From Roseimaritima ulvae (GTDB lineage Bacteria; Planctomycetota; Planctomycetia; Pirellulales; Pirellulaceae), in the NCBI RefSeq assembly GCF_008065135.1, contig NZ_CP042914.1:3534001-3598000 (forward strand): 64,000 nucleotides of DNA. Direction: 5' to 3'. A model generated the notes under the pieces. The model had not been told where the DNA came from, made no database searches, and saw only the letters and a program-made list of their open reading frames with translations. Below, one piece after another: positions 9,132 to 62,145 of this stretch (positions are counted from its first letter, which is position 1; each line of letters starts with the position of its first letter). Position numbers and translations under genes: made by a program.

Positions 9132-9177
9132 ACCAACCAACAACCAACAACCAACAACCAACAACCAACAACCAAAC
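9132..9177. repeat. Heptanucleotide tandem array (AACCAAC)n
   Basis: About six copies of a 7-bp unit AACCAAC run up to the stop codon of the minus-strand DUF1501 gene, which ends at 9178. There is no coding potential. Confidence 0.9.
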
Positions 9178-13843: not shown

Positions 13844-14323
13844 TCAGCCGCGTTCGGCGACCAAACGCACAAAGTCCATGGGCGAGATAATTCCCAGTAG
13901 GCGACGGTCTTTGCTGACCACGGGCACATGATGCACCTGTTTCTGCAGCATTAGGTTGGCCACTTGTTGCATGTTTTCGCCCTGCTGCACCGTGATCGTG
14001 GCGCCGGACATGATGTTGACGATCTCGTCGGCGCCGATCGTGTTGCGGATCAGATCGGTCACCAACGAGGATTGATCATAAATCGCCAGATCGCTGTCCA
14101 AGGTTCGCTCGGCATCCTGCATCACCCGCAACAGGTCGCTGGACGTCAAAATTCCCGCCAGATGATTCGCCTCATCGACGACCGGCAGCGCCGAGAGATG
14201 ATACTCGGTCATCTTGTCCACGGCATCTTGCACGGTGGCATCGTCGGTGATCGTTAGGGGATGTCGCTGCATGACGCTCTCGACCAAAATTTGAGCGTCA
14301 GTCTTGATCGTGTTCGTAGTCAT
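13844..14323 (-). CDS. Paired CBS-domain protein (Hrp1-like), copy 1
   Basis: Predicted 159-residue cytoplasmic protein made of two CBS domains and little else (about 15-70 and 95-155). Both have the usual LPVVDEANHLAGILTSSDLLR and HVPVVSKDRRLLGIISPMDFV cores. Stand-alone CBS pairs bind adenosine nucleotides and act as energy or redox sensors; the M. tuberculosis example Hrp1 (Rv2626c) belongs to the DosR regulon. The ATG at 14323 was chosen because family homology starts there and the longer upstream frame is low-complexity. A perfect sigma-54 -24/-12 match lies upstream at 14401-14416, giving a 5' leader of about 67 bases. The gene is divergent from a universal stress protein gene, and a second paired-CBS gene lies at 20251. 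Confidence 0.92.
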   Translation of the reverse strand: MTTNTIKTDAQILVESVMQRHPLTITDDATVQDAVDKMTEYHLSALPVVDEANHLAGILTSSDLLRVMQDAERTLDSDLAIYDQSSLVTDLIRNTIGADEIVNIMSGATITVQQGENMQQVANLMLQKQVHHVPVVSKDRRLLGIISPMDFVRLVAERG

Positions 14324-14400
14324 GGGAACCTCGACGAAAGGGGCAAATAGGGAGTTAGGAGTTAGCGATAAGGGCTGGTTGTTACGTTGGAAGAACAGGA

Positions 14401-14416
14401 TGCAAACTTTGTGCCA
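14401..14416 (-). promoter_or_regulatory. Sigma-54 promoter for CBS protein 1
   Basis: Read on the minus strand the site is TGGCAC-AAAGT-TTGCA, matching the -24/-12 consensus at all 11 defined positions with the required GG-N10-GC spacing. The predicted start site near 14390 leaves a leader of about 67 bases. Confidence 0.85.
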
Positions 14417-14593
14417 GGGCCGCAGGTGTGGGAGCTTCGTGGATTCGCGAGCCATAGTGATCCGTTTCGCACAGGGGCGGCGAGCGGGGAAGCACACTGC
14501 CGCCATTGTCGCCTCCACCGGCAGCGCTCGCGGGGCATCTTGGGACTGATTTCGCTGTTTCAGATCGGTGCCACGCTTTGGGGGATGGAAACA

Positions 14594-14607
14594 GTGCGTC
14601 GATGCAC
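14594..14607. promoter_or_regulatory. Palindrome GTGC-N6-GCAC, possible activator site 1
   Basis: GTGCGTCGATGCAC lies between two divergent sigma-54 promoters. Its centre is about 77 bases upstream of the predicted start of the stress-protein gene and about 210 upstream of that of the CBS gene, distances typical of enhancer sites for sigma-54 activators. The same palindrome class occurs in three other intergenic regions of the island. Confidence 0.55.
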
Positions 14608-14650
14608 AGGATCAGTCAATAAGCAGGGATTCAGCGAGCGTTCTTGTTAC

Positions 14651-14666
14651 TGGCACCGCGTTTGCA
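14651..14666 (+). promoter_or_regulatory. Sigma-54 promoter for universal stress protein 1
   Basis: TGGCAC-CGCGT-TTGCA, a full match to the -24/-12 consensus. The predicted transcription start near 14677 gives a leader of about 39 bases before the ATG at 14716, including a GGGAG ribosome-binding site. Confidence 0.85.
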
Positions 14667-14715
14667 TCGCAGTCCAGGCAATCATTGATCGAAGACGCCT
14701 CGCCGGGAGCCCATC

Positions 14716-15663
14716 ATGCGAGTCCTACTAGCCAACGACGCATCTCCTCATTCGCGGGCCGCAGCGGAGTATTTGTTAGCGGTTCCGTTTCGCAGGCCGA
14801 TCGATTTGGATGTGGCTTGTGCGGTCTCGCCGCCATTGATGGTCGACACGGGGCTGGGGATTCCCGTGGACCTGCATGACTTCATCGAAGAGGAACGGCA
14901 GGCGGTGCAACAGCGTGTGGAAGAGACGGCCGAACAGTTGGGTGGACCGGTCCATTCGGTGCATACGCATGTGCCTGTGGGACCGGCGTCCAGCGAGCTG
15001 CTGGAGTTGGCCGAGGGGACGGGCGCCGACCTGATCGTATTGGGCGCGGTCGGCCATTCCGCCATGGACCGAGTGTTATTGGGCAGCGTTTCGGATTATG
15101 TGGCGACGCACAGCGACGTTTCGACCCTGGTCGTGCGTCCCAAACGCGATTCCGAGCTGCCACCTTCGTTGCAGAAAATCATGCTGGCGCTTTCGGGCAG
15201 CCCTGAAGACGACCGGATGTTGCAATGGTTGCGATGCCTAAAACTAAATCCTGGCGTCGAAGTCCATCTGGTGCGGATTTTGCGTCTGGACAAATTCTAC
15301 CGCCACGACATCCGGCAGAAGGCGTCCGCCTACTGGCAATCCTTCGTCAACGCGGCTCAGACTCAAATTCTGGATTTTGAAACCAAGCTGCAAGATATGG
15401 GATTGAATACCGAAACGCATTTGGTGGAAGCAGAGCATATCGGAGAGGCTCTAATCGACTATGCCGAGCAGCACGGTTGCGACCTGATGATGACCGGCGA
15501 TAGCGACAGCGGCTTGCTGACTCGGGTCTTCTTGGGCAGCACCTCGCGATATGTACTGCGGCACGCTCAGTGCAGCGTGATGATCGTGCGAGACAAGTCG
15601 GACCGTCAAGCGGCCAAACGCGCCGTGGCGGAACAAAGTCAACAGGGTTCGGTAGGCGTGTAG
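14716..15663 (+). CDS. Universal stress protein, tandem UspA domains, copy 1
   Basis: Predicted 315-residue protein with two UspA domains (about 1-142 and 152-297). The first ends in GAVGHSAMDRVLLGSVSDYVATHSDVSTLVV and the second in TGDSDSGLLTRVFLGSTSRYVLRHAQCSVMIV; both show the G-x2-G-x9-G-S/T pattern of ATP-binding Usp proteins, though the second is shifted. Tandem Usp proteins such as Rv2005c and Rv2623 in mycobacteria bind ATP and slow growth under hypoxia. A GGGAG sequence precedes the ATG. It is driven by a perfect sigma-54 promoter and is divergent from CBS protein 1. It is convergent with the P-type ATPase gene. The C-terminal 15 residues are polar and not conserved. Confidence 0.92.
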   Translation: MRVLLANDASPHSRAAAEYLLAVPFRRPIDLDVACAVSPPLMVDTGLGIPVDLHDFIEEERQAVQQRVEETAEQLGGPVHSVHTHVPVGPASSELLELAEGTGADLIVLGAVGHSAMDRVLLGSVSDYVATHSDVSTLVVRPKRDSELPPSLQKIMLALSGSPEDDRMLQWLRCLKLNPGVEVHLVRILRLDKFYRHDIRQKASAYWQSFVNAAQTQILDFETKLQDMGLNTETHLVEAEHIGEALIDYAEQHGCDLMMTGDSDSGLLTRVFLGSTSRYVLRHAQCSVMIVRDKSDRQAAKRAVAEQSQQGSVGV

Positions 15664-15677
15664 CGAGCCACAATCCC

Positions 15678-15747
15678 CCGTAGCTACCGTCGCCAGACGG
15701 TGGGACAGAGACGGAAGCGGCCCCACGCTCTGGCGAGCGTAGCCACG
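15678..15747. repeat. GTAGC/GCCA hairpin pair
   Basis: GTAGCTACCGTC-GCCA-GACGGTGG forms a hairpin, and an imperfect inverted copy (around 15721-15746) faces it. The pair lies between the convergent stress-protein and ATPase genes. Confidence 0.8.
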
Positions 15748-15763
15748 TTGGGCGCAGTCGTCG

Positions 15764-18508
15764 CTACAAGGTTGCTTTTGGGTGCCGTTTTCGCCACGTC
15801 CATTTGTGCAGTTCCATCACCGGCAGGATGGTTAGCGCCAATAGAATCAGCAAGCCCCAGTTGTTCAGGGAAATCGGTTCGGCGCCCAACAGCGACTGCC
15901 CGAAACCGCTGTGCATGGCGGCGAAGTGGATCAGAAAGGCCACGACCGCCCCGGTCAACAACACGGGGCTGCGAAACGGTGAGATGGCGAAGGCCGACTT
16001 GGTCTCCGAACGGCAATTGCCGACGTGAAAATTTTCGAACAGGACCATCAGCAGCAATAACAGGTTGCGGGTGGTGGCGGCGTCGTTCGGGCTGGCATCG
16101 GCGGGCAGGAACCAGCGGAACAGCCCAAAACCCACAATGCCCATCAGCAGTGCGGCGATCACCGTGCGTTCGATCATCAATTGATTAAAGATCGACTCGT
16201 CGGGCGAGCGAGGTTGCCGCTGCAGCACGCCGCCTTCATTGGGTTCCAACGCCAGGGCCACGTGTTGAATGCCGTTGGTGACCACATTCAGCCAGAGGAT
16301 TTGCACCGGCAACAGGGGCAGGTATGGGGACCCCGTAGCCACCGCCAGGGTCATCAAAACCAACTCCGCCGCCCCGGTGGAAACCAGCAGATAGATCACC
16401 TTGCGGATGTTATCGTAGGCCACGCGTCCCTCTTCGATACCTGACACGATGGTGGCAAAATTGTCATCGCTGATCACCAGTTCGCCGGCTTCGCGGGCCA
16501 CGTCGGTACCGCTTTTGCCCATCGCCACTCCGATGTTGGCGGCGCGCAGCGCGGGCGCGTCGTTGACACCATCGCCGGTGACGGCGACGAAGTGACCGGC
16601 TTGCTTGGCAGCTTCGACGATCTGCAGTTTTTGCCGCGGAGCGACACGAGCAAAAACGCGGATGCGGCGGACGATGTGGGCGAGCTCTGCGGGAGTGATG
16701 TTATCCAGATCGGCGCCGGTCAGCACGTGCTGTTCGGTATCGGCCAGCCCCAATTCACGAGCGATGGCCAGCGCCGTGACGCTGTGGTCGCCGGTGATCA
16801 TGGAGACCTGCACGCCGGCTCGCTGACAATCCTGAATCGCGGCCTGCACGCCCGGGCGGAGCGGGTCCAGCATGGCGGTAAAGCCCAGAAACCGCAGGTT
16901 TTCCGGCGTGGGAGGCGGATCGGCGGAGGACAAATCGGGGGCTGTCTGACCGTCGGCAATGGCCAACACCCGATAGCCGCGGGCGGCCATCTCGATGGCT
17001 TGGGCTTCCAATGCCGTTTGATCTAAATCGCCGCCCTGAGCTGTGGAACACATCGCCAGCACGCGTTCCAACCCGCCTTTCACGAACACCGTCACGCCGC
17101 CGTTGTGGCGATGGTACGAAGCCGCAAATTGGTACTCCGGTTCAAACGGTATTTGATTGGCCTGAGCATACCGGTCCAGCATCGCTTCGCGGGTCAGGCC
17201 CAACTTGTATCCGCCGCACAGCAGCGCGATGTCCACGGCGTCGCCATGCCAGTGCCAGGACCCGTCGCGGCGATGCAAGTCGGCTTCGTTGCACAACACC
17301 GCGGCGCGGAACATGGCTTGCAAGGCTTCGTGCTCCTCCGCCTTGATGGCTCGACCGTCCAGCAACACATCGCCTTGCGGAGCGAAACCTTCGCCGCTGA
17401 CCTGGAATGTTGTCCCGTCGGGCAGAGCGATTTCTCGCACCGTCAGTTCATTGCAGGTCAAGGTACCGGTTTTGTCGGTCGCGATCAGCGTACAACTGCC
17501 CAGCCCCTCGACCGCGGTCAACCGCCGGACAATCAATCCGCGACGGGCCATCCGGATGGTGGCGATGGCCAGGGCCACGGTCATGGCCACCGGCAAGCCT
17601 TCGGGGATCACCGAAACGGCCAGCGCCACGCCAAACAAAAACATTTCGGATATCTGGTAGCCCCCCAAGGCGACGCCCAACGTGCCGATCGAGGCGGCGG
17701 CGATCAGTACCGCCACCGCGATCGCCTTGGTGAAGCGTTCCATCCGCACCAACAGCGGTGGGCTGCCGCCAGTATCCGCCAAGACGTCCAGGGCCAGTTG
17801 ACCGACGTTGGTGGCTTGACCGGTGGCCACCACCAAACCTTTGGCTCGGCCGCGGGTCACAATCGAACCGGCCTGGGCCATGTTGACGCGATCGGCCACC
17901 ACGGTTTGTGGCTCGCACACCGCCGCCGCGTCTTTCACCACGGGCAATGATTCGCCAGTCAATAACGATTCGTCGACTTCCAGTGCATGAGCTTGCAACA
18001 GACGTAGGTCGGCCGGAACGCGATTGCCCGACTCCAACCAAACCACGTCACCGGGCACCACATCTTCGGCGTTCAGATCACGGACTTCCCCATTGCGACT
18101 GACCGTGGCCCGAATCTGCAACAGCTGCCGCAGCGCCAGACTACTCTGCTGGGCTTTCCATTCCTGGTAGGAACCGATCAGGGCGTTGAGCACCAGGACG
18201 CCGAGGATGAAGCCGGCGTCTTTGACGTCGCCCATGGCAACCGACACCACGGCGGCGATCGCCAAAATATAGATCAACGGGCTCTGGAACTGCCGCAATG
18301 CGATCATCCATAAGGGCGTCGGTGGCGGTTGTGGAAGCGTATTCTTGCCATAGTGAAGCAATCGCGATTCCGCTTCCGACTGCCGCAACCCGGCTGTATC
18401 CGCTGACAATTCCCTCGTTACCGCGTCCGCAGTGAGTGCGTGCCAGGCGGGCGGGGAGCAAGCTTGATCGTTCACGTCGGGCAAAACCTGTTGTGTTGAG
18501 TTAGGCAT
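15764..18508 (-). CDS. P2-type cation-transporting ATPase (CtpF/calcium-pump-like)
   Basis: Predicted 914-residue P-type ATPase. The phosphorylated Asp345 lies in DKTGTLTCNELTV; the TGES actuator loop is in ESLLTGESLPV; PEGLP of membrane helix 4 is in SVIPEGLPVAMT; and the hinge reads VTGDGVNDAPALRAANIGVAMG. An N-terminal cation-ATPase domain precedes two helices, and six helices close the chain. P2 ATPases pump Ca2+, Na+ or K+, and the ion here is not certain. CtpF of M. tuberculosis, a DosR-regulon calcium pump, is a similar type. The ATG at 18508 has a GGAG nearby and is the family-consistent start. A near-perfect sigma-54 motif at 18523-18538 would place the transcript start only about 4 bases before this ATG, so either the mRNA is nearly leaderless or another promoter is used. 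Confidence 0.94.
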   Translation of the reverse strand: MPNSTQQVLPDVNDQACSPPAWHALTADAVTRELSADTAGLRQSEAESRLLHYGKNTLPQPPPTPLWMIALRQFQSPLIYILAIAAVVSVAMGDVKDAGFILGVLVLNALIGSYQEWKAQQSSLALRQLLQIRATVSRNGEVRDLNAEDVVPGDVVWLESGNRVPADLRLLQAHALEVDESLLTGESLPVVKDAAAVCEPQTVVADRVNMAQAGSIVTRGRAKGLVVATGQATNVGQLALDVLADTGGSPPLLVRMERFTKAIAVAVLIAAASIGTLGVALGGYQISEMFLFGVALAVSVIPEGLPVAMTVALAIATIRMARRGLIVRRLTAVEGLGSCTLIATDKTGTLTCNELTVREIALPDGTTFQVSGEGFAPQGDVLLDGRAIKAEEHEALQAMFRAAVLCNEADLHRRDGSWHWHGDAVDIALLCGGYKLGLTREAMLDRYAQANQIPFEPEYQFAASYHRHNGGVTVFVKGGLERVLAMCSTAQGGDLDQTALEAQAIEMAARGYRVLAIADGQTAPDLSSADPPPTPENLRFLGFTAMLDPLRPGVQAAIQDCQRAGVQVSMITGDHSVTALAIARELGLADTEQHVLTGADLDNITPAELAHIVRRIRVFARVAPRQKLQIVEAAKQAGHFVAVTGDGVNDAPALRAANIGVAMGKSGTDVAREAGELVISDDNFATIVSGIEEGRVAYDNIRKVIYLLVSTGAAELVLMTLAVATGSPYLPLLPVQILWLNVVTNGIQHVALALEPNEGGVLQRQPRSPDESIFNQLMIERTVIAALLMGIVGFGLFRWFLPADASPNDAATTRNLLLLLMVLFENFHVGNCRSETKSAFAISPFRSPVLLTGAVVAFLIHFAAMHSGFGQSLLGAEPISLNNWGLLILLALTILPVMELHKWTWRKRHPKATL

Positions 18509-18522
18509 CTCACAAGGCTCCT

Positions 18523-18538
18523 TGCAATTCCGGTGCCT
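18523..18538 (-). promoter_or_regulatory. Sigma-54 promoter motif next to the ATPase start
   Basis: On the minus strand AGGCAC-CGGAA-TTGCA matches 10 of 11 consensus positions with exact spacing. The predicted start site near 18512 is very close to the ATG at 18508 and downstream of the apparent Shine-Dalgarno, which is a conflict noted in the findings. Confidence 0.55.
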
Positions 18539-18647
18539 CGCAAACCGCAAGCGAGCGAGGAGGCCGCGGGCCTTGCATCTGGGGACGAGCGGAGCGGATA
18601 CACCGGGCAGATTGTGGGCTGTGGTGAGCCATGCGGCGCGCCCGATT

Positions 18648-18661
18648 GTGCGTCATCGCAC
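18648..18661. promoter_or_regulatory. Palindrome GTGC-N6-GCAC, possible activator site 2
   Basis: GTGCGTCATCGCAC, with 5-bp perfect half-sites, lies almost midway between the two predicted sigma-54 start sites of the ATPase and cytochrome genes (about 142 and 151 bases away). Apart from this palindrome and the promoters, the 344-bp region 18509-18852 holds no gene I can support. Confidence 0.55.
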
Positions 18662-18778
18662 GCACCTCCCTCCTGGAACCGACAGGGAGGCTGCCGATGG
18701 GGCTGCCGTCTGCCGTTTATGGTTGTGCCCTTGCCGTTTGGGCGCGTGCCCATGAAAAGCGGTTGAGAGCGATGCGTT

Positions 18779-18794
18779 TGGTACAGACCTTGCG
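18779..18794 (+). promoter_or_regulatory. Sigma-54 promoter for the cytochrome c lipoprotein
   Basis: TGGTAC-AGACC-TTGCG matches 9 of 11 positions, keeping TGG and GC at the right spacing. The predicted start near 18805 leaves a 48-base leader. A weaker alternative (TGGTTG-TGCCC-TTGCC) lies at 18720-18735. Confidence 0.65.
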
Positions 18795-18852
18795 ATTGGT
18801 AGTTGCGGTGAATGAAAACCGTTTCTTTTTTACAACATTGAAAGGCAGCACC

Positions 18853-19308
18853 ATGAAGTGGTTGTCCTGCGTATCGCTGCTGAGCGTGGTATGGTTTGGC
18901 GGTTGCATGTCGGATCCTAAATCCGGCGAAGGGTTTTCGTTGCCCGATGGAAACGCCGAGCAGGGACGGGCCACCTTTACCAGGCTGCAGTGTCAGGCTT
19001 GCCACACCGTTTCGGGAGTCGAGTTTGAAGAGGCCGCCGGCGACGCTGCGGACCAGATGATCGCGTTAGGGGGCGAAACTACGCGGGTTCGCACCTATGG
19101 CGATCTGGTGACTTCGATCATCAATCCTTCCCACCGTTTCGCGACCGGGTACGAGGATGAGCAGATCAAGGCCGGCGAGGAATCCAGGATGCCGATCTAC
19201 AACGACAAACTGACGGTCACCGAGTTAACGGATTTGGTTGCGTTTTTGCAGCAACACTACGAGCTGAAGACCTATCCGATCACACCTTACACGCCTTACT
19301 ACCACTAG
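18853..19308 (+). CDS. Monohaem cytochrome c lipoprotein
   Basis: Predicted 151-residue lipoprotein. The signal sequence ends in a lipobox (VVWFGGC, Cys18), so the protein should be anchored to a membrane by lipid. A single class I c-type haem site C47-Q-A-C50-H51 lies near the start of the mature protein, and a likely distal Met is in SRMPIYND. The INPSHRFATGY segment is typical of small electron-carrying cytochromes linked to oxidases or nitrite/NO reductases. The ATG at 18853 was chosen because it gives a clean lipoprotein leader; a longer frame from 18631 has none. A sigma-54-like promoter lies 60-75 bases upstream. It is divergent from the P-type ATPase. Its partner enzyme is unknown. 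Confidence 0.88.
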   Translation: MKWLSCVSLLSVVWFGGCMSDPKSGEGFSLPDGNAEQGRATFTRLQCQACHTVSGVEFEEAAGDAADQMIALGGETTRVRTYGDLVTSIINPSHRFATGYEDEQIKAGEESRMPIYNDKLTVTELTDLVAFLQQHYELKTYPITPYTPYYH

Positions 19309-19333
19309 TGCTTTGGTCCGTTTCAAAACTAAG

Positions 19334-19357
19334 GTAGCCGATCTCGCCAGAGATTGG
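19334..19357. repeat. GTAGC/GCCA hairpin
   Basis: GTAGC followed by CCGATCTC-GCCA-GAGATTGG (7 pairs plus one G-T pair). It lies between the convergent cytochrome and response-regulator genes. Confidence 0.75.
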
Positions 19358-19446
19358 ATCGAGGCGATGAAAAGGCCCAAAGTCTGGCTACGCTCGGCTA
19401 CGGCCGGACCCTCCGATCCTGTGTTGACGCAGCACGCGTGCGGCGA

Positions 19447-20091
19447 TCAGCTGTTTTCGATCATCCACTTCACGGCGTGGCGAATCAACGCCGGCATGTC
19501 GTCGACGCCCAGCTTCTCTTTCAAGCTGGCTCGGTAGGCCTCAATCGTCTTGGGGCTCAACTGCATCTGTCGGGCGATGGCTGCAGTGTTGAAGCCCCGG
19601 CCGATCAATTCGAAGGTTTGTAGCTCACGGTCGCTCAGACTATCGGCTCGTTGTTGAGCCTCCGTTTTTTTACCCTGAACTACGCGGTGCAGCATTGCAT
19701 TTTTCATGCTGGGACTCAGGTAGATCTCGCCGCGTCGAACCGTTCGGATGGCGGTAATCAAATGATCGGAGGCTTCACGTTTGTGGACATACCCTACCGC
19801 TCCGGCACGCAACGCTCGCTCGGCGTAGACCTGCTCGTCGTACATCGACCAGACCAACATCCGGGTTTTGCATTTTTGAGCGTGGGCAAGCTTCACCAGT
19901 TCGATGCCATTGCCCGTCTTCAACGAGACATCCACGATGGCGATATGGGGCCGTTGCTCTGTGAGTAATTGCAGAGCCGTATCCATATCCTCGGCTTCGC
20001 CGCAGACGTAGAGATCCGGTTCAATTGCGATCCGGGCCTTCAGACCATCTCGTGTCGCGGGGTGATCATCGACGATCACGATCGTAATCAT
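19447..20091 (-). CDS. NarL/DosR-family response regulator
   Basis: Predicted 214-residue two-component response regulator. The receiver domain (1-120) has the acidic pair Asp8-Asp9, the phospho-acceptor Asp54 (IAIVDVSLKTG), and a Lys near 104 (GYVHKREAS). The C-terminal LuxR-type helix-turn-helix (about 150-200) reads LSDRELQTFELIGRGFNTAAIA and is followed by LSPKTIEAYRASLKEKL. No histidine kinase is adjacent, so it is an orphan in this window. Its class is that of NarL and of DosR, and the neighbours are DosR-regulon-like genes, so it is a candidate controller of the island. It is not a sigma-54 activator itself because it has no AAA+ domain. A sigma-54 promoter match lies 112-127 bases upstream. 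Confidence 0.93.
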   Translation of the reverse strand: MITIVIVDDHPATRDGLKARIAIEPDLYVCGEAEDMDTALQLLTEQRPHIAIVDVSLKTGNGIELVKLAHAQKCKTRMLVWSMYDEQVYAERALRAGAVGYVHKREASDHLITAIRTVRRGEIYLSPSMKNAMLHRVVQGKKTEAQQRADSLSDRELQTFELIGRGFNTAAIARQMQLSPKTIEAYRASLKEKLGVDDMPALIRHAVKWMIENS

Positions 20092-20202
20092 GCCTAGCCC
20101 CTCGCTGATTTTCAGTCGTTTTCCCCTTGCTAGACTCGGCAGCCGCGTTTGATCGACAGACTTTCAACCTACACTGTTAGCGGGTCTAATAACTCACAGT
20201 GG

Positions 20203-20218
20203 TGCATTTTGTGTGCCA
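20203..20218 (-). promoter_or_regulatory. Sigma-54 promoter for the response regulator
   Basis: On the minus strand TGGCAC-ACAAA-ATGCA matches 10 of 11 consensus positions. The predicted start near 20192 gives a leader of about 101 bases. A GTGC-N7-GCAC sequence, one base wider than the recurrent palindrome, overlaps the -24 element and may be chance. Confidence 0.75.
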
Positions 20219-20250
20219 AAACAGCACGGTGCGTCTAGATGGCGAAGCCC

Positions 20251-20739
20251 TTACCCCAGAGCTGCGATCAGGCGGACAAAGTCATGTGAGGACAGCATTC
20301 CCGCCAAGCGGCCCTCGGAGTCGACCACCGGCAGATGGTGAAGTTGGCTGCGACGCATAAGCGCTGCCGCGTGCCGGACCGTGGCCTCTGCGTCGACGGT
20401 CGTCACTACCTCGCTCATCACTTCGGTCGCCTTGTCGCTTCCCAATTTTCGTTGGATCAAATCGACGGCCCACAGGCAATCATCAAAGTGCGGGTAATCG
20501 CTATCCAACGTCTTGTCGGTCTCCAACACCACCTTCAACAGGTCCGACGCCGATACCATGCCCACCACCTGCTGCTCGCTGCCGACCACCACCAACGAGG
20601 AGATCCGCCCGGCCACCATCTTTTCAATCACATTGCGGACGGTGTCCGATTGGGCGACCGAAACCACCGGTGCGGTCATTACCGCTCGTACCGTGGTCGC
20701 CAAGCCATCGGGAAATGTATCGCTGCGATGTGAACCCAT
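20251..20739 (-). CDS. Paired CBS-domain protein (Hrp1-like), copy 2
   Basis: Predicted 162-residue protein with two CBS domains, clearly a relative of the product at 13844: the VMTAPVVSV opening, the SASDLLKVVLETDKTLDSDY middle (compare SSDLLRVMQDAERTLDSDL) and the LPVVDSEGRLAGMLSSHDFVRLI end all correspond. The two are probably ancient paralogues. The ATG at 20739 has AGAGGA upstream and was preferred to an in-frame start at 20802. It lies upstream of the response-regulator gene on the same strand with a 159-bp gap that contains that gene's own promoter. I see no convincing sigma-54 site of its own, although a palindrome of the island type lies 50 bases upstream. The likely role is sensing of adenylate ligands. 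Confidence 0.92.
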   Translation of the reverse strand: MGSHRSDTFPDGLATTVRAVMTAPVVSVAQSDTVRNVIEKMVAGRISSLVVVGSEQQVVGMVSASDLLKVVLETDKTLDSDYPHFDDCLWAVDLIQRKLGSDKATEVMSEVVTTVDAEATVRHAAALMRRSQLHHLPVVDSEGRLAGMLSSHDFVRLIAALG

Positions 20740-20788
20740 GGTTTCGTCCTCTTGCTGTTGGAGTTCCCGCATCATATCGCTAGAGAGT

Positions 20789-20802
20789 GTGCATATCCGC
20801 AC
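20789..20802. promoter_or_regulatory. Palindrome GTGC-N6-GCAC, possible activator site 3
   Basis: GTGCATATCCGCAC, of the same class as the other three sites, lies in the divergent region between CBS protein 2 and the methyltransferase-like gene. It is about 139 bases from the weak sigma-54-like motif at 20909 and about 600 from the response-regulator start site. Confidence 0.5.
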
Positions 20803-20908
20803 GCAGTGCTCTCAGGGTCGCTGTGCTCTGTCCGCGGGCGGCGATATACGGGTTGGTCCATGAAAGAGCATAGGCCGTTCCGAAGTGGGAGGGACGCGAT
20901 GAATTCAA

Positions 20909-20924
20909 TGGGAAATTTCAAGCG
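20909..20924 (+). promoter_or_regulatory. Weak sigma-54-like motif ahead of the methyltransferase-like gene
   Basis: TGGGAA-ATTTC-AAGCG keeps only the invariant GG-N10-GC frame plus a few consensus bases. The spacing to the gene and to the palindrome at 20789 agrees with the better sites, which is the only reason to list it. Confidence 0.25.
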
Positions 20925-20966
20925 GGGCGTTCTGATACGATGGGGCGGAGAAACAGGAAATCGGTC

Positions 20967-21563
20967 ATGAATTCCCCTGGCATTGAACCGTCCGAAAAGC
21001 GTCCCAAGGTCCCTTCGCTGGTGTTGGTGACGCTGCAGTTTGGCACCGCCGCGGCCTTGGTGTTGAGTTCGTTCCGGGAGCTGCCCGAGCATCCGCTGGC
21101 GTTGGCGACGACGGTTGTGGGAGCTTTGACGGGGCTCTGGGCCGGCTGGCGTTTTGGCTGGCGAAAAATCACAGTCATGCCAGATCTGCGGCAGGATGCG
21201 AGCCTGATCACCGGCGGGCCTTACCGCTGGATCCGGCACCCGATGTACACGGCCGTGCTGTTGTTCACTGGCGGATTCGCCTCCGCGCCACTGCGGCTCT
21301 GGACGCTGGCGGTGTGGTTGATTTTGGCGGCCGTGGTCGCGGAGAAAACGCGTCGGGAAGAACGATTATTGCAGCAGCGGTTTTCCACCTATGCGGACTA
21401 TCGCCGCCGGACCGGACGGTTCCTACCCAAACTCTTTCCCAAACTCTTTCCCAAACTCTTTCCCAAACTCTTTCCCAAACTCTTTCCCAAACTCTTTCCC
21501 AAACTCTTTCCCAAACTCTTTCCCAAACTCTTTCCCAAACTTTTCGTCAAACGCGACGACTGA
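20967..21563 (+). CDS. Isoprenylcysteine carboxyl methyltransferase-like membrane protein with LFPK repeat tail
   Basis: Predicted 198-residue integral membrane protein of the ICMT/PEMT-like superfamily. The conserved core is LITGGPYRWIRHPMYTAVLL followed by helices and REERLLQQRFSTYADYRRRTGRFLP, as in bacterial ICMT-like proteins that use S-adenosylmethionine; the substrate is unknown. After the normal end of the domain the chain runs into FLPK, nine exact copies of LFPK and a final LFVKRDD, encoded by a 12-bp tandem DNA repeat. This tail is unique to this protein here and is likely to vary in length. AGGA eight bases upstream supports the ATG at 20967 over 20940. It is divergent from CBS protein 2 and convergent with the kinase gene, 12 bp away. 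Confidence 0.85.
   Translation: MNSPGIEPSEKRPKVPSLVLVTLQFGTAAALVLSSFRELPEHPLALATTVVGALTGLWAGWRFGWRKITVMPDLRQDASLITGGPYRWIRHPMYTAVLLFTGGFASAPLRLWTLAVWLILAAVVAEKTRREERLLQQRFSTYADYRRRTGRFLPKLFPKLFPKLFPKLFPKLFPKLFPKLFPKLFPKLFPKLFVKRDD
21426..21545 (+). repeat. 12-bp tandem repeat encoding LFPK
   Basis: Nine exact copies of a 12-bp unit (CCCAAACTCTTT in the coding sense) plus degenerate flanks, in frame inside the methyltransferase-like gene. Because 12 is a multiple of three, slippage would add or remove whole LFPK units without a frameshift. Confidence 0.95.
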
Positions 21564-21575
21564 CCGGGAGGCCCT

Positions 21576-23150
21576 TCACAACTGGCTTACGGTCTGCACG
21601 GTATCGGGGATGTCTACCACTTTGGCTCTTTCGGCAGCGGTCAGCGGTTGTTGGCTGGCCAGTTGATGTTCCAATACCTGCAGATCGGCATCCGATGCAT
21701 CGTCGTCCTGAGCCATGCGATCGGCAACACGTTGTCGCAGGGTATGCGGGTCGGCATGGCAGTCGAGAATGGCAAACGCCGCGCCATGCTTGCCGGCGGT
21801 CTCCCAGAAGGCTTGCCGCTGGTGTTGGCGTAAAAACGTGGCGTCGATGACCACGCTGTAGCCCGCGGCTAGAATTTTGCCGGCGATTTGCTGAAGCGTC
21901 TGATAGGTTTGGCGGTTTTCGGCTTCGCTGTACATCTTCTGCTGAAGTTCGGCGGACGGCCGTTCGCAGGGGGAAAGCCCAAAGCGTCGCTTGCGTTCGA
22001 TGTCGCTCCGCAACCGAAAGGCCTCATGCCGCTGGACCACGTACTCGCTGACCGTGGTTTTACCGCTGCCGCTGACCCCGTGCGTGATCCACAGCGTGGG
22101 CAACTCTCGCAATGTGTAACGGTAGGCCAATTCGATGTGCCGCCGGCAGGCCTGCTGCACTGCTTCACGTTCGGTCTCCGACAACGAGGGTTGTTGCAGC
22201 CGCAGGGCGGCAACCATCCCGCGAACCAGGGCTCGATAACAGAGGAACCAGCGGAGAATAGTCAGCGAGCGATGGTCGCCGGTTTGTTCCAGATAAGCGT
22301 TCAGGAAGGTTCGCGACAGATCCAGATGGTCGCGGGCCGCCAGATCCATGGCCAGGAAGGCGGCGTCGCTGAGCACATCGATCCACCGCAGGCGTTCACT
22401 GAATTCAATTCCATCGAATGGCATTAGCCGCCCCTGCCAAGCAACCACGTTTTGCAGATGCAAGTCGCCGTGGCATTCACGAATCCAACCGTTTTCGCCG
22501 CGAGCGGCAAAGGCCTGGCGATGGCGTGCAAAGTAGTCCACTGACCATGCCCGCACCACATCCAACGTCGCGGCGGTCGAGCCGCTAACGGCGGCGGCGA
22601 TCGACGCGAACAATTGCCGCGAATTGTCCTCCAGGAAATCCGCCCAAGTCGCGGCCAGCACGTCGTCGTCGACGCTTGCACTGCCGTGAAAGTCCGCCAC
22701 GGCCACGGCCAACTGTTTGACTTCCGCCGTCGATAAGCGGCCCGCGTCGATGCGTTCGCTGAGCAAGGCATCGCCGGGGAACCGCCGCATTTTGACCGCA
22801 TATTCGATGGGCTCGGCAGCGTCCTCCGGCGGAATCAATCGTCCGTCGCGGTAGATCGGCACGACGTCCAAATACAGCTCCGGTGCAAACCTTCGATCCA
22901 GACGCAGTTCTTCGTGGCAGAAGCGACGACGATCTGCCAGGCGGCGATAATCCAGGAAATTGGTTTGGATGGATTTCTTGATTTTGTACGCGAACTCGCC
23001 AGCGAGCAACACATACGAAATGTGGGTTTCCTGCAGCACCACCGGACCGTCGACCGCGTGAGGATAGGCCTGCGGACGCAGCAAGCCCTGGATCCAGTCT
23101 TCGCTGGGCGACGATTCGGCTGCGGTCGGATTGCTGGTCGGCTGCGGCAC
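21576..23150 (-). CDS. Bifunctional APH-like and AAA/P-loop kinase protein (Rv2004c-like)
   Basis: Predicted 524-residue protein. The N-terminal half resembles aminoglycoside phosphotransferase and related small-molecule kinases: ECHGDLHLQNVVAW is the catalytic loop and LMPFDGIEFSE the metal-binding segment. The C-terminal third is a P-loop kinase domain with GVSGSGKTT (about 357-365) and a later YSVVIDATFLRQHQRQAF segment, as in gluconate-kinase-like or zeta-toxin-like ATPases. This two-part architecture is that of M. tuberculosis Rv2004c, a DosR-regulon protein of unknown substrate. The GTG at 23150 has GGAG seven bases upstream and was preferred to a GTG at 23216. It is the last gene of the unidirectional set Usp 2, cytochrome c' and kinase. 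Confidence 0.85.
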   Translation of the reverse strand: MPQPTSNPTAAESSPSEDWIQGLLRPQAYPHAVDGPVVLQETHISYVLLAGEFAYKIKKSIQTNFLDYRRLADRRRFCHEELRLDRRFAPELYLDVVPIYRDGRLIPPEDAAEPIEYAVKMRRFPGDALLSERIDAGRLSTAEVKQLAVAVADFHGSASVDDDVLAATWADFLEDNSRQLFASIAAAVSGSTAATLDVVRAWSVDYFARHRQAFAARGENGWIRECHGDLHLQNVVAWQGRLMPFDGIEFSERLRWIDVLSDAAFLAMDLAARDHLDLSRTFLNAYLEQTGDHRSLTILRWFLCYRALVRGMVAALRLQQPSLSETEREAVQQACRRHIELAYRYTLRELPTLWITHGVSGSGKTTVSEYVVQRHEAFRLRSDIERKRRFGLSPCERPSAELQQKMYSEAENRQTYQTLQQIAGKILAAGYSVVIDATFLRQHQRQAFWETAGKHGAAFAILDCHADPHTLRQRVADRMAQDDDASDADLQVLEHQLASQQPLTAAERAKVVDIPDTVQTVSQL

Positions 23151-23211
23151 GGGCGGGCTCCTTGGGAGGTGCGGTGTGTTTAGTGACCTGTTCGACGCTC
23201 GTGCATCTCGA

Positions 23212-23236
23212 TTCACCCTCCCGGGGAGAGGGTGAA
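23212..23236. repeat. Short hairpin (TTCACCCTC / GAGGGTGAA)
   Basis: A 9-bp perfect stem between the cytochrome c' and kinase genes. It resembles the CACCCTCC-type dispersed repeats at 26157 and 33469. Confidence 0.7.
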
Positions 23237-23303
23237 ATCTGTCGCGTCAACGCGGCTGTCCACGGGCCGGGGCCCACAATACGTGCCGCTTGTGTTTGCC
23301 TCG

Positions 23304-23777
23304 CTATTCGCTATCGGGCGAGGTGGTGACGACGCGGGCCGGGGTTTTCAACACCGGGACGGGCGCATCCAAACTCAACACCGGCAGGCGATGGCTGCGC
23401 ATATACCGGTGGCACTCGACGCAACGCACCGTGGCCGAAACGTAGCCCAACGCGGCGCGGCTGATGTCTTCGTCCTCGGCGGCTTTTTCAATGACCTTCA
23501 GGGACCGTCGAAAGTCGATGCTCTGAGCTTCGTACTCTTCGGTTTGAATCACGTTCCAACCGCTTTCGTGGCTCAGCAAACGCAACGCTCGCGCGTTCGA
23601 GGCGATCTTGTCGAACTGTTCCAAGGTCAAACCTTCGAGGATGGCTTTGGAACGTTCAAGTTTCATCCGCATCAGCGGCGTTAGTTTGTTGGGTGGATCG
23701 GTTGGGACGGGCGGGTCGGCCGTGGCGGTGCCGGCCAACAACAGGGCGGCTAGGATTCCAAGCATGCAGCGAGACAT
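23304..23777 (-). CDS. Cytochrome c'-like protein
   Basis: Predicted 157-residue secreted protein. A signal peptide ends about residue 20 (LAALLLAGTATA). The haem site C119-V-E-C122-H123 lies close to the C-terminus, in the last helix region, as in four-helix-bundle class II cytochromes (c' and c-556). The rest is helical (RSKAILEGLTLEQFDKIASNAR). Cytochromes c' often bind NO or CO and protect against nitrosative stress; this role is inferred, not shown. The ATG at 23777 has GAAGGA upstream, which is a better context than the longer frame from 23837. It sits between Usp 2 (56 bp gap) and the kinase on the same strand, so it is probably in their operon. Confidence 0.82.
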   Translation of the reverse strand: MSRCMLGILAALLLAGTATADPPVPTDPPNKLTPLMRMKLERSKAILEGLTLEQFDKIASNARALRLLSHESGWNVIQTEEYEAQSIDFRRSLKVIEKAAEDEDISRAALGYVSATVRCVECHRYMRSHRLPVLSLDAPVPVLKTPARVVTTSPDSE

Positions 23778-23833
23778 CGACAAGTCCTTCAAGCGGGAAA
23801 CAAAACAGCGGACGGGGGAAATGAATCGGAGCT

Positions 23834-24745
23834 TCAAACCAGGGGCAGCGGTTGATCCTGGGAAGCGGCAGGGGACGACGTGGGTAGAGATTGCACCATG
23901 CGGTTGCGGGTGATCCAGACGCTGCAGGCGGCGTGTCGTAACAGGAATCGAGTCACACTGCCCAGCAGGATCCGGCCCAGACGGGTGCGCGGCGTTTCGC
24001 CCACGACCACCAAGTCCATCTGCTTCGATTCGACATACTGCACCAGACCTTCGCCCATGTGCTCGCTGGGGATCAGCACGCCGGTGGCCCGCGGCGCCAC
24101 GGCATTCAACCGCTGTGCAGCCTCATCGACCGGAGCCGAGGACAGTGCCTCGGGGCCGGACTGATAGAATCCCGGCTGATAGACTGCCGACACCACACTG
24201 ACATCCGTGTCTGCGCCCCAACGGAATTCGGCGAATTCCTCCAACGCGGCCTGCGCCGGTTCGCTCGGTTCAAAGGCGATCGCCACGCGGAGCGGATGTT
24301 GGTTTTCCATCACGCCGGTGCGGCGGACGACCAGCACGCTGCACGGACAGTGCGTCGCGACGTAGTCGCTGGTGCTGCCCAGCAGGATCCGCGAGATGGT
24401 CGAATGTCCCGTTGCTCCCAACACCAGCAGCTCGGGCTGCAGCTCACGGGCCACCGCCACAACCGTTTCGGCCGGATGTCCCTCGCGGGTGACGTGCTTG
24501 AGCACCACGTTGGCTCCTTCAAACAACGCCTCGATCCGGGCAAAAGCAGCATCTGCGGATTCCCGTTCCCGCTGCATGCAGGTTTTGATCCAATCGCCAC
24601 CCAGGTAGGTCCTGTGAGAGCCGGGCACAAACAAAGCCGTGACCACGGTCAACTCAATGGTTTCCTCGTGGGGGATATGCGACAAAAATCGGGCGGCGTC
24701 TTCCGCTGCCTGCGACCCATCGGTGGCAACCACGATCTTCTTCAT
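23834..24745 (-). CDS. Universal stress protein, tandem UspA domains, copy 2
   Basis: Predicted 303-residue protein with two UspA domains (about 1-145 and 155-290). It opens with MKKIVVATDGSQAAEDAARF. The first domain has GATGHSTISRILLGSTSDYV with the Usp ATP-binding glycine pattern; the second ends in VVGETPRTRLGRILLGSVTRFLLRHAACSVWI. It differs enough from copies 1 and 3 to be an independent paralogue rather than a recent duplicate. The ATG at 24745 matches the family start; the longer frame to 24790 adds unrelated residues. A sigma-54 promoter match lies at 24824-24839, giving a leader of about 68 bases. It heads the Usp 2, cytochrome c', kinase set and is divergent from Usp 3. Confidence 0.92.
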   Translation of the reverse strand: MKKIVVATDGSQAAEDAARFLSHIPHEETIELTVVTALFVPGSHRTYLGGDWIKTCMQRERESADAAFARIEALFEGANVVLKHVTREGHPAETVVAVARELQPELLVLGATGHSTISRILLGSTSDYVATHCPCSVLVVRRTGVMENQHPLRVAIAFEPSEPAQAALEEFAEFRWGADTDVSVVSAVYQPGFYQSGPEALSSAPVDEAAQRLNAVAPRATGVLIPSEHMGEGLVQYVESKQMDLVVVGETPRTRLGRILLGSVTRFLLRHAACSVWITRNRMVQSLPTSSPAASQDQPLPLV

Positions 24746-24823
24746 GACTTTCTCCGCTGTGAATCGATTTCCCCTGCAATCCGCCGGCATGAGACCTGAC
24801 GGTTACAAGCGAATGCAAAGCGT

Positions 24824-24839
24824 TGCACGTAGGGTGCCA
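24824..24839 (-). promoter_or_regulatory. Sigma-54 promoter for the Usp 2 operon
   Basis: On the minus strand TGGCAC-CCTAC-GTGCA matches 10 of 11 consensus positions. The predicted start near 24813 gives a leader of about 68 bases, almost the same as CBS protein 1 and Usp 3. Confidence 0.8.
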
Positions 24840-25000
24840 AAGCCGCATACCCGAACGCACTATCCAGACATTCTTGACAATCTTGCGAGCTGGCAAGCGC
24901 TGCCGGAGTCCGGCGGTGCAGCACGGGAGACGTCACCGTCGCGTGCAAATGGATTATGGCTCTCGCGGCGCGCCAAACTGCACGTAACCTGGACCATAGC

Positions 25001-25014
25001 GTGCGATGGTGCAC
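25001..25014. promoter_or_regulatory. Palindrome GTGC-N6-GCAC, possible activator site 4
   Basis: GTGCGATGGTGCAC lies between the two divergent Usp promoters, about 65 bases from the predicted Usp 3 start and about 195 from that of Usp 2. This layout matches the 14.4-kb region. The 394-bp region 24746-25139 has no gene I can support. Confidence 0.55.
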
Positions 25015-25046
25015 GGATACGGCTCGTATCGCTGGCGAATTCTCAT

Positions 25047-25062
25047 TGGCATGCGAACTGCA
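25047..25062 (+). promoter_or_regulatory. Sigma-54 promoter for Usp 3
   Basis: TGGCAT-GCGAA-CTGCA matches 9 of 11 positions with exact spacing. The predicted start near 25073 leaves a leader of about 67 bases. Confidence 0.65.
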
Positions 25063-25139
25063 ATCTTCTCCTGCGTGTCAGAACCGCGTTGTCGGGGAAG
25101 AGACCTGTTCCGATCCAATGTTCGCAGGAGTGCAGATTG

Positions 25140-26060
25140 ATGAAGATTTTATTGGCAACCGACGGTTCGGGACCGGCGAAGGAAGCGACAAGGCTGGTTC
25201 GCTCGATGGCAAAGAACAATTCCGTCGACGTGCATGTGTTGACCGTTTCTTATGATCCGGCGCAGTACGCGACGCAGCCCTGGGTGCCGGAGTGGGTCGA
25301 ACAGGAGAAGCAGGTTTCGCACCAGATTCTTGATCAAGCGCAAACCATCTTGGAAGATGATTGTGAGTCGGTGACTCTGGTGCATCAGGCGGGACCGACG
25401 GTGCCCTGTATTTTGGAGCAGGCCGAAGCGGCGGATGTGGACCTGATTGTGTTAGCCGCCAAAGGCCGCTCGGCGTTGCGAAGAGTGCTGTTGGGCAGCG
25501 TCTCGGATAGTGTGGCGACTAGCGCAAAGTGCTCGGTGTTGGTCGTCCGTGCCAATGAAGGTGCGGAGTTGGAGCCATGCAAGATCGTGCTGGGCTTTGA
25601 TCAATCGGTGGCCTCGCGAGAAGCGGTGGCGGAATTGATGGAGTGGAATTTCCATCGGGACTGCGCGGTTGATCTGGTCAGCGTGGCGGTGCAGGCCTTT
25701 TCGTTCGTCGGGGAAGGCTACGAGGGGCCGCCACTGACGCTAAATCCGCAGCGCGTCGAACAGATTCAGCAATCGGCGGATCGCATGGCCAGCCAAATCG
25801 CCGAACATTTCCCGCACACCAAAGTGCATTCCCCGGTGTCCAGCCACGTCGGCGATTCGATTGTTTCGATCGCCGAATCGACCAAGGCGAACATGGTGGT
25901 GGTGGGCGACAGTGGGCACAGCCAAATTGGCCAGTTCTTGCTGGGCAGCACGTCCAAGTACGTGCTCCGGCACGCCCCCTGCCACGTCTGGATCTCCCGG
26001 CATCACTGGAACGCGGACCCAATCATGGGCCAGCGCGAAAAGGCCGCGGTCGGGAAGTAG
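25140..26060 (+). CDS. Universal stress protein, tandem UspA domains, copy 3
   Basis: Predicted 306-residue protein with two UspA domains (about 1-142 and 150-290). It opens with MKILLATDGSGPAKEATRL. Both domains keep the ATP-binding glycine pattern, in VLAAKGRSALRRVLLGSVSDSV and VVVGDSGHSQIGQFLLGSTSKYV. It is closer in feel to copy 1 than to copy 2 in its second domain. AGGAG nine bases before the ATG decides the start; a longer frame from 24639 runs through the promoter region and is rejected. The stop codon is followed at once by a 7-bp tandem array. It is driven by a sigma-54-like promoter at 25047 and is divergent from Usp 2. Confidence 0.92.
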   Translation: MKILLATDGSGPAKEATRLVRSMAKNNSVDVHVLTVSYDPAQYATQPWVPEWVEQEKQVSHQILDQAQTILEDDCESVTLVHQAGPTVPCILEQAEAADVDLIVLAAKGRSALRRVLLGSVSDSVATSAKCSVLVVRANEGAELEPCKIVLGFDQSVASREAVAELMEWNFHRDCAVDLVSVAVQAFSFVGEGYEGPPLTLNPQRVEQIQQSADRMASQIAEHFPHTKVHSPVSSHVGDSIVSIAESTKANMVVVGDSGHSQIGQFLLGSTSKYVLRHAPCHVWISRHHWNADPIMGQREKAAVGK

Positions 26061-61832: not shown

Positions 61833-62039
61833 GATTCGAGATTCGAGATTCGAGATTCGAGATTCGAGATTCGAGATTCGAGATTTGAGATTTGAGATTT
61901 GAGATTTGAGATTTGAGATTTGAGATTTGAGATTTGAGATTTGAGATTTGAGATTTGAGATTTGAGATTTGAGATTTGAGATTTGAGATTTGAGATTTGA
62001 GATTTGAGATTTGAGATTTGAGATTTGAGATTTGAGATT
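61831..62039. repeat. Heptanucleotide tandem array (GAGATTC/GAGATTT)n
   Basis: About 30 copies of a 7-bp unit begin at the stop codon of the macroglobulin-like gene. The first copies end in C and later copies in T, showing spread of a variant along the array. Confidence 0.95.
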
Positions 62040-62040
62040 T

Positions 62041-62145
62041 GTCTCCTTGTCTCCTTGTCTCCTCACTCCTCACTCCTCACTCCTCCCTCCTCCCTCCTCC
62101 CTCCTCCCTCCTCACTCCTCACTCCTCACTCCTCACTCCTCACTT
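62041..62145. repeat. Pyrimidine-rich array (CTCACTC and CTCCCTC units)
   Basis: Short CTCCTTGT copies are followed by 7-bp CTCACTC and CTCCCTC units. The unit is the complement of the array at 26061. With the preceding array it fills most of the 458-bp gap 61833-62290; the rest shows no gene. Confidence 0.9.

Follow-up and report, generated by a model that had tools for sequence, protein, structure and literature searches.

The DosR regulon of mycobacteria brings together genes for universal stress proteins (USPs), CBS-domain proteins, P-type ATPases and kinases, with low oxygen as its common theme. Closer in its wiring to the system considered here is NmpRSTU of Myxococcus xanthus, which consists of an NtrC-like activator, a hybrid kinase and a haem sensor kinase, and whose sigma-54 promoters precede CBS, USP, P-type ATPase/oxidase and hemN genes; induction at low oxygen has been shown for a single promoter of this set (PMC11841059). 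Homologues of nmpSTU were noted in 2018 in the planctomycete SH-PL14 (PMC6211767). The low-oxygen lxa locus of Burkholderia cenocepacia contains several USPs and a cytochrome c, and a FixK/Anr-like regulator under FixLJ has been suggested as its possible controller (PMC6127331). Lastly, an in-silico sigma-54 regulon of Planctomycetia, published in 2025, is enriched for UspA (COG0589) and NtrC-type regulators; the accessible portion of that paper describes no operator, assigned activator or oxygen sensor (PMC12316311). Here we describe a 64,000-nucleotide stretch, the window, from the single 8.2 Mb contig of the Roseimaritima ulvae genome (positions 3534001–3598000), in which an island of 11 called genes (window positions 13844–26060) carries seven candidate sites for sigma-54, whose promoters belong to a specialised class under tight control. 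We propose, with a probability of roughly two in three, that the island belongs to an oxygen-linked sigma-54 regulon driven in trans, through the palindrome GTGC-N6-GCAC, by an NtrC-type activator encoded at 2.28 Mb.

Nmp is the closest described system, and the Roseimaritima regulon would work likewise, but it fails two of the defining features of Nmp, namely the protoglobin kinase and the operator. The shared features are an activator with receiver, AAA+ and helix-turn-helix (HTH) domains, a hybrid receiver-kinase near the activator, a haem-type sensor kinase, sigma-54 promoters of stress genes and a dyad enhancer. Whereas the sensor NmpU is a protoglobin kinase, the candidate sensor of Roseimaritima is a FixL-like PAS protein, and no match to protoglobin (PF11563) was found in the genome. 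The Nmp operator is a paired GCGCA-N5-TGCGC with the copies 14–15 nt apart in five of seven promoters, whereas that proposed for Roseimaritima is GTGC-N6-GCAC and mostly single. The NmpR operator has no exact match in the window, and 69 matches at up to two mismatches compared with 105 in shuffled sequence.

The FixL/FixJ system of rhizobia shares with Roseimaritima the haem-PAS kinase domain, but in the latter the kinase adjoins an NtrC-type activator; no relative of the island's LuxR-type regulator was detected by BLAST at that locus, where two genes lie downstream, one without a Pfam match and the other not scanned. The lxa locus has several USPs and a cytochrome c in common with the island, and differs in the FixK/Anr-like controller suggested for it. 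The DosR regulon is similar in gene content and different in wiring, Roseimaritima having, on the proposed reading, sigma-54/NtrC control together with another sensor and another operator. The DosR box GGGACTWWAGTCCC gave five matches at up to three mismatches, none of them in the island. The original prediction had considered sigma-54 wiring of such a gene set to be new. The likeness in gene content is fair, but the island lacks a DosR box, and the claim of novelty has to be trimmed, the sigma-54 enrichment of UspA (PMC12316311) and NmpRSTU (PMC11841059) having already been published. In the open-access literature we found no paper which assigns the 2.28 Mb activator or its sensor in planctomycetes, the letters of the operator not having been searched, most subscription journals lying outside the coverage and the 2004 Pirellula study to which PMC12316311 refers not being included.

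A pattern search for TGGCAC-N5-TTGCA recovered all seven of the sites originally proposed, two of them without mismatch, three with one and two with two; the GG-N10-GC spacing within a TGGCAC/TTGCA context is that of sigma-54 promoters. The full matches are 14401–14416 on the minus strand (score 20.3 with an approximate sigma-54 matrix, the best in the window), facing the CBS gene 13844–14323, and 14651–14666 on the plus strand (18.1), facing USP_A. Those with one mismatch are all on the minus strand and face the LuxR-type response regulator (20203–20218, 15.8), USP_B (24824–24839, 13.4) and the P-type ATPase (18523–18538, 12.6). Those with two mismatches are on the plus strand, 25047–25062 (14.8) facing USP_C and 18779–18794 (13.2) facing the cytochrome c gene if the latter starts at 18853. 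The statement that every site is oriented towards its gene thus holds outright for six of them; at the gene caller's start of 18697 site 18779 falls inside the cytochrome gene. The start at 18853 was chosen after the site was known; the counts below are therefore stated for the caller's start as well.

Placing the transcription start (+1) 26 bases after the first T, we obtain predicted leaders, in the order of the sites from 14401 to 25047, of 67, 39, 4, 48, 101, 68 and 67 bases. The near-equality of three of them (those of 14401, 24824 and 25047) had been remarked upon; the values were confirmed, but the other four differ, and a meaning for the coincidence is not supported. Site 18523 is doubtful because its predicted +1 (18512) falls past the ribosome-binding site of the ATPase gene, being downstream of AGGAG (18518–18522) and 4 nt before the ATG (18508). 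It is likely to be a chance match, and the seven sites cannot be treated as equals. Ranked by matrix score, 14401, 14651, 20203 and 25047 are the top four in the window, and these are very likely real sigma-54 promoters. Sites 24824 and 18779 are likely to be so as well; the intragenic site 45357 (14.6) outscores the former, and 21771 (13.3) the latter. On the sequence evidence we regard five or six of these sites as probably real.

The number of matches is in itself unremarkable. At up to two mismatches the window contains 28, against a mean of 23.1 in shuffles (standard deviation 5.2), and 22 of 100 shuffles reached 28; at up to one mismatch the genome contains 160, against 178 for the pattern written backwards. 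Among the first 13 by coordinate of the 143 one-mismatch matches five are intergenic and eight lie within genes, so that one mismatch alone is weak evidence. Taken alone, these counts would favour the view that a loose pattern has simply found chance matches in a large window. Their placement speaks against it. Genome-wide, every one of the 17 full matches is intergenic (binomial p about 5e-14 at an intergenic share of 16.5%), and 15 face a called gene whose start is no more than 250 bp away. Of the 11 genes in the island, 6 (or 5, if the caller's start is used for the cytochrome gene) have an oriented site scoring at least 13 at 38–160 bp before the start, whereas in a background of 400 kb, sampled at even intervals, 9 of 284 genes do (Fisher 2e-6 and 4e-5, respectively); there the reversed matrix produced no oriented matches. 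What goes far beyond chance is the placement of the matches, not their number. Given this placement and orientation, together with the conservation and the coupled palindrome described below, a chance origin for the set as a whole is extremely unlikely.

The genome also encodes RpoN and 16 strong AAA+ activators, as sigma-54 control of the island demanded. Since these are present, since the full matches of the genome are placed as promoters and since the USP_A promoter is conserved, sigma-54 control of the island is supported by the sequence data. It might be supposed, by analogy with DosR, that the LuxR-type regulator of the island controls it through sigma-70-type promoters and that the sigma-54 matches are secondary; the gene content is like that of the DosR regulon and a NarL/LuxR-family regulator is at hand. 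We regard this as very unlikely, the island being without a DosR box and its sigma-54 sites being placed as they are.

The association of USP genes with such promoters extends to related organisms. Within the loci of relatives an oriented site scoring at least 13 precedes 10 of 29 USP genes and 20 of 508 other genes (p 6e-7), and in the source genome the same is true of four of the five USP genes that the fetched loci contain. Two of three close orthologues of USP_A retain its promoter; in the remaining one (G013) it has degenerated, the site scoring 10.9 and the palindrome, at the aligned place, being imperfect. When the USP_A promoter is aligned with those of the three orthologues and of a paralogue, parts of the palindrome and of the -24/-12 elements are among the few invariant columns and little is conserved between them. 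Elsewhere in the Roseimaritima genome a pair of full sigma-54 matches (7074520 and 7074925), separated by 400 bp, faces divergent genes, likely representing another sigma-54 locus.

The palindrome GTGC-N6-GCAC lies upstream of sigma-54 sites both in the window and in relatives. Its copies in the window are at 14594–14607, a candidate activator site with a distance of 57 bp from its far end to the first T of 14651; at 18648–18661, in the region that separates the ATPase gene from that of cytochrome c; at 20789–20802, upstream of the second CBS gene, the nearest sigma-54-like site scoring only 8.6; and at 25001–25014, where the corresponding distance to 25047 is 46 bp. The window and 20 loci fetched for their USPs or activators together hold 25 exact copies in 69.8 kb of intergenic DNA versus 4 in 386 kb of coding DNA. 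Altering the gap to 3–5 or 7–9 left 0–2 intergenic copies in the same set, and the background contained one intergenic copy in 66 kb and five coding ones. When up to one mismatch is allowed, the window shows no enrichment of the palindrome. The preferred flanks are YGTGCR-N4-YGCACR. Genome-wide, YGTGC-N6-GCACR occurs at 34 sites, 24 coding and 10 intergenic, and of the latter three are in the window and two at the activator locus; 14594, having A at its first flank, is excluded from this count. The combined palindrome-plus-promoter pattern is found at four places in the source genome: the USP paralogue, 14594/14651, 25001/25047 and one further. In a relative, three such composites occur within 3.5 kb (G016:C335:57319-60799), perhaps another island of the same regulon.

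Measured from the far end of the palindrome to the promoter's first T, the spacing is 45–47 bp in three pairs and 55–57 bp in six, with nine further values of 64, 76, 76, 79, 87, 87, 110, 123 and 131 bp and three more of 145–191 bp. An exploratory Rayleigh test on 18 pairs with sites scoring at least 11.5, in which two promoters are counted twice and some pairs are homologous, gave p about 2e-4 at 10.5 bp, three periods having been tried. The clustering of these distances suggests that the palindromes stand in helical register with the sigma-54 promoters.

The proposed activator is encoded at 2281934–2283346 of the genome (L082:11931-13349). It has receiver, AAA+ and HTH_8 domains and contains GAFTGA and GESGTGKE, as befits a member of the NtrC family. 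A palindrome (L082:13498) lies about 150 bp upstream of its gene, and at the same locus a USP paralogue is preceded by a full sigma-54 match, 57 bp upstream of which there is another palindrome. The neighbouring genes specify a PAS kinase with a sigma-54 site of its own (L082:14771, score 15.5), a receiver-PAS hybrid kinase (L082:14856-16313) and a FixL-like kinase (L082:16340-17479). Orthologues of the activator, with 66–73% identity, accompany USPs in relatives, lying about 9 kb from the USP_A orthologue in one (G055) and about 30 kb from it in another (G036). Twenty-five activator loci not used before yielded 11 intergenic palindromes, in 10 loci, and no coding ones; a rescan with longer flanks gave 12 intergenic and 4 coding copies, but was made on mostly the same loci and is not an independent test. 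In the source genome, among 16 activator loci (in four of which the HTH was not readable by script), an intergenic palindrome occurs only at the 2.28 Mb locus, and a coding copy at three others.

These data also bear upon the view that the promoters are of the sigma-54 type, but that the palindrome is bound by another factor, either the LuxR-type regulator of the island or a protein of the CRP/FNR type, and that a different activator acts on the promoters. CRP/FNR sites likewise have a gap of six between their half-sites, the gene of the LuxR-type regulator belongs to the island and is preceded by a good sigma-54 site, and palindrome 20789 has no good sigma-54 site nearby. Against this, the palindrome accompanies the gene of the 2.28 Mb activator in 10 of the 25 fresh loci and none of the 15 other activator loci of the genome; its spacing from the -24 element is regular; and homologues of the LuxR-type regulator were found in none of 20 other compared loci (E 1e-8) and, in a second comparison, in one of 20 activator loci. 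We consider binding by another factor unlikely.

The kinase at L082:16340-17479 has its best matches among solved structures in the haem-PAS domains of FixL (E 3.8e-36). The histidine of its EHDGY motif, which aligns with that of RHDSY in FixL, and the arginine of GIGR are invariant in the four aligned sequences, and we take them to be the haem ligand position and a distal residue, respectively. Because of this match and the retention of both residues, oxygen is likely to be the signal where a FixL-like kinase is present. We labelled 26 fetched activator loci by best BLAST match, four of them being 8–16 kb and the rest 20 kb in length and six having been chosen for their USPs; a hybrid kinase was labelled in 11 and a USP in 13.

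A number of observations weigh against a regulon built upon this activator and palindrome. A FixL-like kinase was labelled in only 9 of those 26 loci, so that an oxygen input may not be general; where it is lacking, the input may be of another kind or its gene may lie elsewhere. Strain SV_7m_r, for one, possesses the activator and an orthologue of USP_A, and its fetched loci showed no FixL-like kinase. An exact intergenic palindrome is present in 13 of 30 activator loci and absent from 17, and GAFTGA reads GSFTGA in two of six orthologues of the activator. Palindrome 14594–14607 is 191 bp from promoter 14401 and palindrome 25001–25014 is 175 bp from 24824, while there is none near 20203. Palindrome 20789 and several others, which lie above activator genes, lack a good sigma-54 site, and perhaps serve in repression or with another sigma factor. 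In bulk the palindrome is not enriched: the source genome has 34 sites where the backwards control has 27, the 119 genomes give a mixed picture with no enrichment over such a control, and the palindrome-plus-promoter pattern is found at 86 places in those genomes against 78 for the control. Null results of this kind would be expected if the exact matches were for the most part fortuitous ones in coding DNA, and the signal appears only after the sites are sorted into intergenic and coding, but they still count against a simple reading. Lastly, the sigma-54 matrix is an approximate one.

Taking the promoters, the palindromes with their spacing, and the domains of activator and sensor as they appear in the sequence, we can outline how the 2.28 Mb activator might govern the island. 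It would bind the GTGC-N6-GCAC palindromes upstream of the -24/-12 promoters and would be switched by the adjacent kinases, that is, the FixL-like haem-PAS, receiver-PAS hybrid and PAS kinases. Presumably upon a fall in oxygen, it would remodel sigma-54 polymerase at the promoters of the USP, CBS, cytochrome c and response regulator genes, and the cell might enter a DosR-like low-oxygen or energy-saving state. A more specific version is more tentative, and we would put it somewhat short of an even chance: that some Pirellulaceae possess a DosR-like programme of low-oxygen dormancy in which a FixL-type kinase signals through the hybrid kinase to the NtrC-type activator, the latter acting at single GTGC-N6-GCAC sites in helical register, with the LuxR-type regulator as a second, sigma-54-driven tier, a combination which would be unreported. 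The original prediction is partly supported; the palindrome, and the trans-encoded activator with its FixL-like kinase, were not part of it, being either hard to notice or located beyond the window.

As to the genes of the island, the two-CBS-domain protein 13844–14323 (minus strand) contains two stretches of PF00571, and USP_A (14716–15663, plus strand) two of PF00582. USP_B (23834–24745, minus strand) and USP_C (25140–26060, plus strand) are likewise two-domain universal stress proteins (PF00582). The P-type cation ATPase (15764–18508, minus strand) possesses PF00122, PF00689 and PF00690. Cytochrome c (PF00034; 18853–19308, plus strand) is given here with its ATG at 18853, and the LuxR/NarL-type response regulator (19447–20091, minus strand) combines PF00072 and PF00196. 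The second two-CBS-domain protein (20251–20775, minus strand) has its called start at 20775 and an ATG with a ribosome-binding site at 20740. A PEMT/ICMT-type methyltransferase is also present; within the end of its gene a 12-bp tandem repeat (21426–21545; 10 copies, 99% identical) encodes a repeated FPKL tail. The kinase-like protein (21576–23150, minus strand) carries AAA_33 (PF13671) in its C-terminal part. The small exported protein (23304–23777, minus strand) has no Pfam match; it contains one CxxCH motif of the haem-attachment type and is conserved near USP and kinase genes. USP_B, this protein and the kinase probably form one operon.

In relatives the vicinity of USP genes repeatedly includes a DHO_dh-like protein and an AAA_33 kinase (L082:10781-11833, L097:5730-6782 and others), and these groups sometimes include the small CxxCH protein, as if they were one cassette. 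Elsewhere in the window long 7-bp tandem arrays (61829–62144; TTGAGAT x30 and CTCCTCA x12) lie at the end of a 1715-aa open reading frame, and further arrays are located at 9134, 26061 and 51847.

Taken together, the data provide a concrete and testable regulon, comprising operator, promoters, activator and candidate sensor, in a phylum whose regulation by oxygen is little known. The island suggests a dormancy-type response like that of DosR which is wired differently, the partner sensor of its activator resembling a known oxygen sensor. The cassette of USP, CBS and ATPase stress genes seen in the DosR and Nmp regulons would appear to have been coupled to different control systems, and therefore the cassette, rather than its regulator, may be the conserved unit.

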